Shown: in pieces, positions 29,583 through 37,477 of the stretch | How positions within the stretch are numbered: the stretch's first letter is position 1 | How the letters are laid out: every line of letters begins with the position of its first letter | Notes under the pieces: model-generated | Told to the model about the DNA's origin: nothing | What the model saw: only the letters and a program-made list of their open reading frames with translations | Databases searched by the model: none | Assembly: GCA_026932145.1 (NCBI GenBank) | Contig: JAIXKT010000021.1 | Location: forward strand, 1 to 64,000 | From: Bacteroidia bacterium | GTDB taxonomy: Bacteria > Bacteroidota > Bacteroidia > J057 > JAIXKT01 | DNA length: 64,000 bases | Direction of reading: 5' to 3' | Translations under genes and position numbers: made by a program

Positions 29583-30041
29583 ATGATACGATACACGATT
29601 AAATTGACAAAGGAAGAAGTAGAGGAACTTCAGGCAATCATTAATAAAGGAAGCCATACTTCACAAACATTCCGTACTGCTTATATTCTGTTAAACTGCG
29701 ATGAAGGCGAATATTCTGACAAAGTAACCAATGAACAGATTAGTAAAGTACTGAAAGTAGGGATGCGAACCATAGACAGAGTTAAGAAAAAATTTATTGA
29801 AGAGGGTTTCGAGCAAGTGCTGGAACGCAGACAGACAAGCCGAAAATATGAAATAAAGATAGACGGCGAGGTGGAAGCTAAATTGGTTGCACTATGCTGT
29901 AGCGAGCCACCCAAAGGATTTGCAAAATGGTCTTTGCGATTGTTAGCAGATAAGATGGTAGAGCTGAATTACGTGGACAGCATATCTTATGTTTCGGTTG
30001 GGAATGTTTTAAAAAAAATGAACTTAAGCCTTGGAAAGTAA
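29583..30041 (+). CDS. IS630 transposase, ORF A (helix-turn-helix part)
   Basis: First frame of the transposase, 152 aa. It carries two helix-turn-helix DNA-binding segments: TNEQISKVLKVGMRTIDRVKK and the part containing FAKWSLRLLADKMVELNYV. The frame reaches a run of eight A (30011-30018) after VGNVL and stops 23 nt later. A -1 slip in this run would join it to ORF B and recreate the conserved KKNELKPWK stretch, so programmed frameshifting is likely rather than mutation. The family normally encodes one product of about 340-370 aa, which the fused protein would match. Confidence 0.8.
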   Translation: MIRYTIKLTKEEVEELQAIINKGSHTSQTFRTAYILLNCDEGEYSDKVTNEQISKVLKVGMRTIDRVKKKFIEEGFEQVLERRQTSRKYEIKIDGEVEAKLVALCCSEPPKGFAKWSLRLLADKMVELNYVDSISYVSVGNVLKKMNLSLGK

Positions 30042-30712
30042 AAGGTTGGGTAATTCCACCGGAAAAAAGTAGTGAGTTTGTAGCACATATGGAAAATGTA
30101 TTGGATGTTTATAAAAGACCTTACAATGAAGAAAACCCCGTTGTTTGCATGGATGAGTCACCAAAGCAATTGATAGAAAGCAAGAACAATTCTCCCATGA
30201 CTCCGGGTTATGAAAAGCGGGAAGATTATGAATACACCAGACATGGTGTTGTCAATATATTTATGGCAAACGAGCCATTGAAAAGCAAACGTTTGGTTGA
30301 AGTAACGCAGACAAAAACCAAAAAAGATTGGGCAATGTTTGTAAAAAGAATAGCTGATGAAATGTATCCGGAAGCGAAGAAGATAACTTTGGTAATGGAT
30401 AATTTTAAAACCCATTCCCCATCGGCATTATATGAAATGTTTGAACCGCAGGAAGCAAAACGAATTTGGGACAGGTTTGAATTTGTATATACTCCTAAAC
30501 ACGGAAGTTGGCTAAATATGGCAGAAATAGAATTACACGTTCTAAACCATCAATGTTTGAATAGGCATATCGCAAAAATAGAAAATATTGTCAGCGAAGT
30601 AGAGGCTTGGCAACAACACAGAAACAACAAAAATGGTAAAATCAATTGGCAATTTACAACAAACGATGCAAGGCAAAAACTCAGAAGACTTTATCCGTTA
30701 ATTTACGATTAA
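30017..30712 (+). CDS. IS630 transposase, ORF B (DDE catalytic part)
   Basis: Second frame, read after a -1 shift at the A8 run; a separate ATG at 30089 also exists. The DDE triad is visible: first Asp in VVCMDESPKQ, second Asp in LVMDNFKTHSPS, and Glu in HGSWLNMAEIELH. The C-terminal segment (VSEVEAWQQHRN…INWQFTTNDARQKL) is typical of IS630 transposases. No other break is seen, so the element could be active if the shift occurs. Confidence 0.85.
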   Translation, partial: NELKPWKVKGWVIPPEKSSEFVAHMENVLDVYKRPYNEENPVVCMDESPKQLIESKNNSPMTPGYEKREDYEYTRHGVVNIFMANEPLKSKRLVEVTQTKTKKDWAMFVKRIADEMYPEAKKITLVMDNFKTHSPSALYEMFEPQEAKRIWDRFEFVYTPKHGSWLNMAEIELHVLNHQCLNRHIAKIENIVSEVEAWQQHRNNKNGKINWQFTTNDARQKLRRLYPLIYD

Positions 30713-34962: not shown

Positions 34963-35400
34963 TTAGTGAGTACCGGGTTTTGCGTTAAAAATAACGTAAT
35001 ATACGATAAAAATCATGCAGATTACAACCAAAGCTCCCATAATAATCATGGTAAGCTGAAACTTGTTTACCTTAGTATCTAATTCTGCTTTTTCTTGAAC
35101 TATTTGGCGTTGTTTTTGAAGGATTTTTTCGTTTTTATTTTTAACCTCTTCGGCTTCAGCACTAATTTCTTGGTTAAAGGCTTGTAGTCTTTCGTTAGCG
35201 GTATTTAACTTAGACTCTAATTTATCACTAACCTTAGTTAGGAACTTTGTTTCATCAAGTAATTTTTCATACTCATCTGCGAGGCTACTGAAATGACCTT
35301 TCAGCTCTTCACGAGAAAGCTCGTCATTGGCAAGTGCTTCACGTGCTTTAGAGAGGCTAACTATCTCATTAGCAAACGCTTCTAATTTTCTTTTTTCCAT
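34963..35400 (-). CDS. Coiled-coil protein with C-terminal membrane anchor
   Basis: Protein of 145 aa with no recognised family. Residues 1 to about 110 are highly charged and heptad-like, predicting one long coiled coil; about 112-137 are a single membrane helix (LTMIIMGALVVICMIFIVYY) with a short tail. No signal peptide is seen, so it should be C-tail-anchored with the coil in the cytoplasm. It is the last gene in the same direction after two SiaB-SiaC pairs, 107 nt beyond the second SiaC, and the operon terminator follows it. Inference: it may be a membrane scaffold or output partner for the SiaC proteins; homology gives no support for this. Confidence 0.6.
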   Translation of the reverse strand: MEKRKLEAFANEIVSLSKAREALANDELSREELKGHFSSLADEYEKLLDETKFLTKVSDKLESKLNTANERLQAFNQEISAEAEEVKNKNEKILQKQRQIVQEKAELDTKVNKFQLTMIIMGALVVICMIFIVYYVIFNAKPGTH

Positions 35401-35507
35401 AGTTAAGTAGTATTACAATTTTATGGCTAAGGTAGTGATATAACTCAAACAGTATTTAAAGTAAAGTATTTAGTTTTCAACAAATTAGTTTAAGTTATAC
35501 ACAAAAC

Positions 35508-35882
35508 TCAGATTGTAACTAAGTCAAAAGGTACGTCTAAAAGAGCTTTGTAGTCTTCGCCGGTCTCTTCCATATCTTCATCGTCTGCGTCATAGCACCA
35601 AGTGATAACGATTTGACGACCATTTTTATGTAACCGTTCTAATCTTCTGAATACGTCTAAAATACACTTAGAGGAACTTGTGTTAAAGTATTCTAATTGA
35701 AATTTAAAATTTGTCTTTGGATTAGGGTTCTGGGCGTATTCATCGAGCCAGTCCAATATTTTTCGATAAAACCCGACTGAATCTTCAGGGATTGATCTGC
35801 CTGAGACTTCAAAGACATTAATGTCGGCGTTCAGTATGACCTTTGGGGTCTTTGGTGTGGGTTCAATAACAAGATTTCTCAC
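35508..35882 (-). CDS. SiaC-family regulatory phosphoprotein, copy 2
   Basis: Protein of 124 aa made of one SiaC (DUF1987) domain. In Pseudomonas aeruginosa SiaC binds and activates the diguanylate cyclase SiaD; phosphorylation of SiaC Thr68 by SiaB blocks this and the PP2C phosphatase SiaA reverses it. Visible: IEPTPKTPKVILNAD, GRSIPEDSVGFY, and LEYFNTSSSK, whose Thr is residue 68 here too. The gene starts 14 nt after SiaB copy 2, which favours that pair as kinase and substrate. No cyclase or phosphatase gene is in the window, so the output is unknown. It resembles SiaC copy 1 closely, pointing to duplication of the pair. Confidence 0.88.
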   Translation of the reverse strand: MRNLVIEPTPKTPKVILNADINVFEVSGRSIPEDSVGFYRKILDWLDEYAQNPNPKTNFKFQLEYFNTSSSKCILDVFRRLERLHKNGRQIVITWCYDADDEDMEETGEDYKALLDVPFDLVTI

Positions 35883-35896
35883 AATAGCAACTATTT

Positions 35897-36457
35897 TTAT
35901 TCTTGTACTCTTGAGATTTTAGCCTCTAAACTAAAAAAGGAATATTTTTCATTTACATAGTGAAAGTCGTAGCCTAATTTTTGGCCGGATTTTCTAGCGA
36001 TGTCAATCATTCCCAAACCGGCAGTACCCTTAGAAGACATCTGTTCGTTAGACAAAATGTCTTGATAAAGTGCCTTTAGCTCCTCTTTATTGGAGTTATT
36101 TACACGTTCAAGTTTTCCCTGAACGTCTTTTACACGGTCATTAAGAATATGGTTTCCGGTAATAACGTAGTAATCTTTATCTTCTTTTCCAATCATTAAG
36201 AGAGCTGTTCTATCATTGATTAATGAATCGTCTGTAATCTCTGCAACTTCAAGGGAGTCTAAGTGATGATATACATTTTGGAGGCATTCAACCATGACGT
36301 TAAATACTTTTCGTTTTACTTTTTTATCTTCATTATCCCCGTCAAGCTTGTTTTCCATCATTTGGAGTACAGAGGATACTAAGTCAGCGGTAACTTCTCC
36401 TTGATAAACAAAGATGATGTTATTCGCTTGCATATTTTTATAATAGCTATAGGTCAT
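35897..36457 (-). CDS. SiaB-family protein kinase, copy 2 (catalytic motifs intact)
   Basis: Protein of 186 aa of the SiaB/DUF6272 family, GHKL-fold kinases that phosphorylate SiaC. The N-box is present as VMVECLQNVYHH (Glu57, Asn61, His64/65) and the glycine loop as SSKGTAGLGMIDIARKS, so ATP binding and catalysis look preserved. The C-terminus SFFSLEAKI is the family ending. Start: ATG at 36457; an internal Met at residue 9 is an alternative. It lies between SiaC copy 1 (21 nt upstream) and SiaC copy 2 (14 nt downstream). Its paralogue upstream has lost both motifs. Confidence 0.85.
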   Translation of the reverse strand: MTYSYYKNMQANNIIFVYQGEVTADLVSSVLQMMENKLDGDNEDKKVKRKVFNVMVECLQNVYHHLDSLEVAEITDDSLINDRTALLMIGKEDKDYYVITGNHILNDRVKDVQGKLERVNNSNKEELKALYQDILSNEQMSSKGTAGLGMIDIARKSGQKLGYDFHYVNEKYSFFSLEAKISRVQE

Positions 36458-36478
36458 AGTCTTTATCTATCGGTAATG

Positions 36479-36862
36479 TTAATACACTTTCATCACAAGC
36501 TCAAACGGAACTGAAATAAGTACTTTATAGTCTTCGCCGGTTTCCTCCATATCTTCATCGTCTTCTTCATAGTACCAGATAATTTTAACGATATTAATAT
36601 CTGAGTGGATTTTTTCCAATCGTTTTAATATTTCCAAAATATTTTTGGAAGAACTTGTGTTGAAGTATTCTAATTCGAATTTGAATTCGGTGAGCGGGAG
36701 AGGTGAACCACCGTACTCATCAATCCAGTCAATAATTTTCTTATAAAATCCGACCGAATCCTCAGGGATTGAGCGGCCTCCTATTTCAAAAACACCTGAT
36801 TCAGCATTTAAATGCACGTGGGGTGTCTTATGGGTTGGTTCTATCTTTAAAGGCTTTATCAT
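36479..36862 (-). CDS. SiaC-family regulatory phosphoprotein, copy 1
   Basis: Protein of 127 aa, one SiaC domain. Motifs: IEPTHKTPHVHLNAE, GGRSIPEDSVGFYKK, and LEYFNTSSSK with the phospho-acceptor Thr at residue 69, one position off the P. aeruginosa numbering. It begins 12 nt after SiaB copy 1 and 21 nt before SiaB copy 2. Since copy 1 of SiaB appears inactive, this SiaC may be phosphorylated by SiaB copy 2, or may be held by the pseudokinase; that is inference. The acidic DEDMEETGEDYK segment near the C-terminus is shared with SiaC copy 2. Confidence 0.87.
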   Translation of the reverse strand: MIKPLKIEPTHKTPHVHLNAESGVFEIGGRSIPEDSVGFYKKIIDWIDEYGGSPLPLTEFKFELEYFNTSSSKNILEILKRLEKIHSDINIVKIIWYYEEDDEDMEETGEDYKVLISVPFELVMKVY

Positions 36863-36874
36863 AAATCGTGTTAT

Positions 36875-37465
36875 TTACAGCAAATTTGCAGAAATTTTAG
36901 CTTCCAAACTAAAAAAAGAATAAGTGTCATTTACGTTTTCAAAGTCATAAGCCAAGGTCTGGCGTGATTTACGGGCAATATCAATGATCCCTAACTTAGT
37001 CAAGTTTGCTGAACTATTTAGCTCACTAACTAATAGTTCTTTATAGTAGCTTTTTATACTAGCTGTATCCATAGCATTTATAGAGTCAATGAAACTGGAT
37101 ATTTCGTTACAAAGAGATGTCTCTATAAAGCGGCCAGTAGATACGTAATAAACAACTCCTAATTTTTTTACAAGTAATATTGCGGTTGGGTCAAATTTTG
37201 GGTCGTCTTTTTCAACTTCTTGATAAACACCCTGAAAACATTCAACCATAACGTTGAACACTTTCTTAGAAACCTTTCTGTCTGCTCCGTTATCTTCCAA
37301 CATATCTCCCATAATTTTAAGTACGCTCACAACTAAGTCGCTGGTTACGATACCGTTAAACTGAAAGATAATGTTGTTCTCAAACATCTCCCGGTAACAG
37401 GGATACAGAAACCCCATAGGGTTAGGTGTCTTGTATCGATTTATGGAGAGAATGTCAATATTCAT
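36875..37465 (-). CDS. SiaB-family protein, copy 1, probable pseudokinase
   Basis: Protein of about 196 aa related along its length to SiaB copy 2 (FNVMVEC, LGIIDIARKS, YSFFSLEAKI). I start it at 37465 because TATATTTG ends 4 nt before this ATG; the longer open frame from 37561 would run through the promoter. The N-box reads VMVECFQGVYQEV: the Mg-binding Asn is Gly (codon GGT) and the His residues are lost. The glycine loop KGTAGLG of copy 2 is ANLTKLG. Both ATP-site motifs are thus degenerate while the fold residues and frame are kept, which suggests a selected non-catalytic role rather than decay. It is the first gene of the operon. Close alternative: a kinase with altered chemistry. Confidence 0.78.
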   Translation of the reverse strand: MNIDILSINRYKTPNPMGFLYPCYREMFENNIIFQFNGIVTSDLVVSVLKIMGDMLEDNGADRKVSKKVFNVMVECFQGVYQEVEKDDPKFDPTAILLVKKLGVVYYVSTGRFIETSLCNEISSFIDSINAMDTASIKSYYKELLVSELNSSANLTKLGIIDIARKSRQTLAYDFENVNDTYSFFSLEAKISANLL

Positions 37466-37469
37466 GCCG

Positions 37470-37477
37470 CAAATATA
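37470..37477 (-). promoter_or_regulatory. -7 box of the SiaB-SiaC operon; predicted leaderless start
   Basis: TATATTTG on the minus strand ends 4 nt before the chosen ATG (A at 37465). It both locates the operon promoter and decides the start codon. Confidence 0.6.

Follow-up and report, generated by a model that had tools for sequence, protein, structure and literature searches.

Results

The window, by which we mean the whole 64-kb stretch of DNA from an uncultured Bacteroidota bacterium analyzed here, carries an operon of five genes on the minus strand, in the order SiaB1, SiaC1, SiaB2, SiaC2, and CC. The two tandem SiaB-SiaC pairs put forward in the original prediction are present as open reading frames (ORFs) at positions 35508 to 37465 (minus strand), and their products score above the family cut-offs. 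SiaB1 (36875 to 37465, minus strand) encodes a degenerate SiaB-family kinase paralogue of 196 amino acids (SiaB_fam_kinase, 116.9 bits; DUF6272, 97.8 bits), for which an internal Met near residue 17 could also serve as the start. SiaB2 (35897 to 36457, minus strand) encodes a canonical SiaB kinase of 186 amino acids (SiaB_fam_kinase, 163.9 bits). Both lie above the cut-offs of Pfam DUF6272 and of NCBIfam SiaB_fam_kinase, which is 85 bits for the latter. The phospho-acceptor proteins SiaC1 (36479 to 36862, minus strand; 127 amino acids) and SiaC2 (35508 to 35882, minus strand; 124 amino acids, GTG start) reached 134.3 and 145.1 bits, respectively, against a Pfam SiaC cut-off of 24.5 bits. The two SiaB proteins are 45% identical to each other, and the two SiaC proteins are 64% identical. 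The NCBIfam equivalogs for the Pseudomonas aeruginosa proteins gave scores below their cut-offs, with 66.5 and 77.8 bits for the SiaB proteins of the window (cut-off, 225) and 86.3 and 90.2 bits for its SiaC proteins (cut-off, 150).

The fifth gene, CC (34963 to 35400, minus strand), encodes a coiled-coil protein and predicted SiaC target with one C-terminal transmembrane helix at residues 119 to 137 (34990 to 35046, minus strand; Kyte-Doolittle mean of 2.92 over 19 residues). A third SiaB-SiaC-CC set lies at contig C7 of the same genome, which comprises 3.48 Mb in 66 contigs with a listed completeness of 100%. Neither this set nor the CC gene had been part of the original prediction, although CC lies within the very stretch it described. 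Upstream of SiaB1, TATATTTG (37470 to 37477, minus strand) matches a Bacteroidota -7 promoter box and may be a promoter element of the operon; boxes of this type match 98 times within the window on both strands, so the assignment carries low weight. Elsewhere in the window (29583 to 30712, plus strand), an ORF for a helix-turn-helix protein is followed by one for a DDE_3 endonuclease; both are transposase-like and possibly represent one split transposase gene.

We compared the ATP-site motifs of the SiaB proteins. SiaB2 has the residues first ascribed to it, namely E57, N61 (codon 36275 to 36277), H65, and the glycine loop KGTAGLG (36011 to 36031), and the N-box Glu and Asn, the TGN motif, and the glycine loop are retained in all seven SiaB2 copies from tandem genomes. 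The changes described for SiaB1 were likewise correct: Gly, encoded by GGT (37229 to 37231, minus strand), replaces the N-box Asn, and ANLTKLG (36989 to 37009, minus strand, as aligned with homologues) replaces the glycine loop. The N-box His and the TGN Asn of this copy are replaced as well, and the catalytic Glu is kept. We then set the seven SiaB1 proteins against 131 other SiaB domains, drawn from a survey of 60 genomes and from additional loci. The catalytic Glu57 was present in all 138 domains. The N-box Asn was kept in 129 of the 131 others and the third loop Gly (G147) in 126, so that the motif changes in SiaB1 of the window are far from chance. G147 was lost in 7/7 SiaB1 proteins compared to 5/131 others, and the TGN Asn (N102) in 4/7 compared to 1/131. 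Loop position 145 (T145 in SiaB2) was Leu in every SiaB1 protein and in none of the others, most of which have Gly or Thr. The N-box His (H65) was Asp or Glu in all seven SiaB1 proteins, a replacement found in 0/131 other domains, 122 of which keep the His.

The original prediction had raised the question of whether the N-to-G and glycine-loop changes recur in first tandem copies. The loop change did so (7/7). The Asn-to-Gly change was confined to SiaB1 of the window, and the other six copies keep the Asn, which rules it out as a defining mark of the first copy. The recurrent marks of SiaB1 are instead a rebuilt glycine loop and the replacement of the N-box His by Asp or Glu. Only two of the remaining 131 domains (L079_5043 and L059_469) are without the N-box Asn; both come from outside the order, and both have also lost the loop Gly. 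The first of these belongs to an independent B-C-B-C tandem within the class (L079, 4062 to 6008, plus strand), in which the second SiaB is sister to the canonical first copy (100/98). In this second SiaB, the N-box Asn is replaced by Ala, TGN reads SGR, and the loop contains NADLA, a pattern similar to that of SiaB1.

AlphaFold2 models of SiaB1 (pLDDT, 84) and SiaB2 (pLDDT, 81) both had P. aeruginosa SiaB (6kko) as their best structural match, with E values of 1.7e-12 (TM, 0.72/0.82) and 1.6e-11, respectively. Taken with the motif changes, this suggests that SiaB1 is likely a pseudokinase that keeps the SiaB fold; as its catalytic Glu is conserved in 7/7 copies, this status is likely rather than proven. 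The main rival explanation is that SiaB1 has remained an active kinase, devoted to SiaC1 and with its ATP lid redesigned, so that the operon would encode two parallel and insulated kinase-substrate pairs. It earns this place because the Glu is always kept and the N-box Asn usually so (6/7), and in most relatives SiaB1 may thus have retained ATP binding or phosphorylation. Moreover, the new loop is itself conserved, with Leu at one position and Thr or Ser at another in all seven copies, and the helix that follows it is well kept. Against an active enzyme stand the uniform loss of the third loop Gly and of the N-box His, both of which nearly all other SiaB domains retain, and, in the copy of the window, the additional loss of the N-box Asn and the TGN Asn. 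On this balance, we regard an active SiaB1 as rather unlikely.

Both SiaC proteins contain the expected phospho-acceptor, Thr69 in SiaC1 (codon 36656 to 36658) and Thr68 in SiaC2 (codon 35679 to 35681), within a YFNTSS motif that was invariant in 14 SiaC proteins. SiaC1 and SiaC2 are separated by seven fixed differences, four of them at most 11 residues from the phospho-Thr, and the divergence includes the helix adjoining this residue. Fixed differences so close to the phospho-Thr fit different partners for the two proteins, and they count in favor of an active SiaB1 with a SiaC1 of its own. The divergence in this helix, together with the location of SiaB1 directly upstream of SiaC1 in 7/7 genomes, would also fit a SiaB1 that binds SiaC1 only, as a sink or chaperone, and does not pair with SiaB2. 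We consider this improbable, as dimers of SiaB have been reported (PMC7278518) and pairing between the sister paralogues is therefore expected a priori.

Among the relatives searched, six shared the SiaB-SiaC tandem, which was thus found, with the genome of the window, in seven genomes from five families of the order, and no SiaB was found in 13 genomes of one other family of the same order. A tree of 55 SiaB domains showed SiaB1 (100/99) and SiaB2 (99/92) each as a clade, the two clades as mutual sisters (99/97), and the third set of the genome apart from them. This topology indicates that a single SiaB duplication preceded these families; judged from the sequences, this is a genuine, ancient event that took place once, in an ancestor of several families of the order. 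The SiaC tree recovered a SiaC2 clade (93/98) and did not resolve a SiaC1 clade. SiaB1 has evolved faster than SiaB2, with a stem branch of 0.96 compared to 0.22 and with longer tip branches, and the identity to the copy of the window is 44 to 47% for other SiaB1 proteins and 77 to 82% for other SiaB2 proteins. The faster evolution of SiaB1 overall would fit relaxed constraint too. dS was saturated in most pairs, too much so for dN/dS to be used, and the three pairs for which SiaB1 could be computed gave dN/dS values of about 0.03 to 0.23. Between two congeneric species, in which SiaB1 is 90% identical, dN/dS was about 0.03 for SiaB1 and 0.01 for SiaB2, with dS near saturation. SiaB1 thus evolves faster than SiaB2 and is nevertheless under purifying selection, and we therefore take it to be a maintained, probably noncatalytic paralogue, preserved over a very long period. 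A loss of function by drift after the duplication, leaving SiaB1 without an important role, could draw on the longer branches and on the copy of the window being the most degenerate, but it is hard to credit for a gene that is in frame in 7/7 tandem genomes from five families, that shows high identity and low dN/dS between congeneric species, and whose replacement residues are conserved across its clade.

Other arrangements of these families came to light in the survey. In a genome of the same order, SiaB and SiaC are naturally fused into one protein of 319 residues (L049, 3603 to 4562, minus strand). Two-domain SiaB-SiaB proteins are common outside the order (L061, L064, L072, L074, L080, L086, L102, L106, and L109), and both of their domains are mostly motif intact. 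In another lineage, a protein of 1,540 residues (L094, 3823 to 8445, minus strand) combines Reg_prop repeats, a Y_Y_Y domain, a SpoIIE/PP2C domain, and two SiaB domains and is followed by a SiaC gene, resembling a natural SiaA-SiaB-SiaB fusion.

In Pseudomonas, SiaB phosphorylates SiaC on Thr68 and thereby controls a diguanylate cyclase, in a switch known from biofilm control. The original prediction had stated that no cyclase or phosphatase is encoded nearby. This is literally right, since we found no PP2C match in the 64-kb window and no GGDEF match anywhere in the genome; when run on 14 control genomes, the same GGDEF search was positive in 8. An output through c-di-GMP, as the comparison with Pseudomonas would imply, is consequently unlikely here. 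Since the genome yielded no gene for the enzyme that is usually the target, a small membrane protein is probably what the switch acts on.

The protein in question is very probably CC, judging from its sequence. In its unphosphorylated form, SiaC of P. aeruginosa binds the SiaD cyclase at two motifs of its stalk, and S82, D83, and Q86 are among the contacts (PMC8457831). The proximal motif of SiaD reads RRLEKVARISDRYQQMMRDLN, and its counterpart in CC is KFLTKVSDKLESKLNTAN (35194 to 35247, minus strand). At five proteobacterial plasmid loci, SiaC-adjacent proteins, including a GGDEF protein and a histidine kinase, have the same motif layout. From these five proteins and the SiaD motif, we built a target profile that contained no CC sequence. 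The 15 CC proteins took the first 15 ranks among 1,667 ORFs, with an E value of 7.2e-8 for CC of the window and of 0.17 for the next ORF. CC did not stand out from the background in simpler searches, which used a two-sequence HMM and a plain BLOSUM scan with the two SiaD motifs, and we give little weight to regular expressions for the stalk motif, which were composed after both sides had been seen. A CC profile search of the genome returned only the two CC proteins above noise, and PDB sequence searches with CC or with a CC alignment yielded no relatives. CC lies downstream of SiaC2 in 5/7 tandem genomes; it was not found next to SiaC2 in G002 and G008 (L038 and L041), which retain both SiaB-SiaC pairs. 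At another locus (L209, 5414 to 6349, plus strand), the gene immediately downstream of SiaC encodes an Azospirillum histidine kinase in which the stalk motif is present (KVAKISDRLQTE), which suggests that a kinase, like a cyclase, can be a SiaC target.

Relatives also point to a candidate phosphatase for the switch. A protein of about 1,050 residues with GAF, PAS, and SpoIIE/PP2C domains is encoded immediately upstream of SiaB1 in both G010 and G001. The G010 genes run CheR, CheB, PP2C, SiaB1, SiaC1, SiaB2, SiaC2, and CC in a row; CheB was confirmed by Pfam, and CheR was assigned solely by its likeness to the G005 protein. CheR and CheB homologues also lie upstream of SiaB1 in G005 (Pfam confirmed) and G006 (read from sequence). 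In the genome of the window, a Pfam-confirmed CheR-CheB-PP2C cluster is located on contig C1, unlinked to the Sia operon, and its phosphatase is 41% identical to that of G010 over residues 16 to 1053, nearly the full length. Since the genome encodes about 15 PP2C proteins, the choice of this GAF-PAS-PP2C homologue as the one that would serve the switch follows from homology and from linkage in the relatives.

Discussion

We propose that the operon encodes an old, duplicated Sia switch in which SiaB2 is the kinase, SiaB1 a noncatalytic binder, the PP2C protein the phosphatase, and CC the target; as a whole, we consider this account moderately probable. According to our model, SiaB2 would be the working kinase and would phosphorylate the SiaC proteins on Thr68/69. 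SiaB1, maintained and probably noncatalytic with its SiaB fold kept, would most likely act by binding. It may pair with SiaB2, hold SiaC1, or do both, so that the availability of SiaC would be set by two inputs; that SiaB1 tunes or sequesters SiaC, as originally suggested, may fairly be inferred. The phosphate would be removed by the GAF-PAS-PP2C phosphatase, encoded elsewhere in the genome beside the CheB and CheR homologues. Unphosphorylated SiaC would then bind CC at its stalk motif, and this coiled-coil protein, anchored in the membrane, would take the place of the cyclase. Tentatively, we extend this proposal to a Sia switch free of a cyclase. In such a switch, the kinase would act jointly with its pseudokinase sister, old and kept by selection, to control the access of two diverged SiaC proteins to a stalk anchored in the membrane, and the output would be a membrane or cell-envelope event and not c-di-GMP.

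The proposed switch shares with the SiaABCD system of P. aeruginosa the SiaB-family kinase fold, the NTSS phospho-Thr motif of SiaC, a candidate PP2C phosphatase with sensory domains, and a predicted target with a SiaC-binding stalk motif. It differs from SiaABCD in that the SiaB-SiaC pair is doubled and one SiaB has altered ATP motifs, in that the candidate phosphatase is unlinked in this genome, and in that the predicted target is a small membrane protein in a genome with no GGDEF match. Kinase paralogues with divided roles, some of them without kinase activity, are known from the SigF partner switch of Mycobacterium smegmatis. Of its three RsbW paralogues, only RsbW2 phosphorylated RsfB; RsbW3 did not, and it interacts with RsbW1, a heterodimer being assumed by the authors (PMC7693655). 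In that system the paralogues are encoded at separate loci and the switch targets a sigma factor, whereas here a single operon and the SiaB family are involved. In other Bacteroidia, the same families occur as single SiaB-SiaC pairs and as tandems or fusions of two SiaB copies, and a doubling of SiaB is common among them, also as two domains of one protein and once fused to a PP2C protein; unlike SiaB1, nearly all of those copies keep the kinase motifs. In the literature searched, we found no description of a kinase-negative paralogue in the SiaB family.

If our interpretation is correct, the operon would offer a natural kinase-pseudokinase pair, with orthologues in seven genomes, for studying how pseudokinases of the SiaB/SpoIIAB fold act. 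It would also suggest that cyclases are not the only targets on which a Sia switch can run, and this would widen the range of processes that the many SiaB-SiaC operons of Bacteroidota may control.
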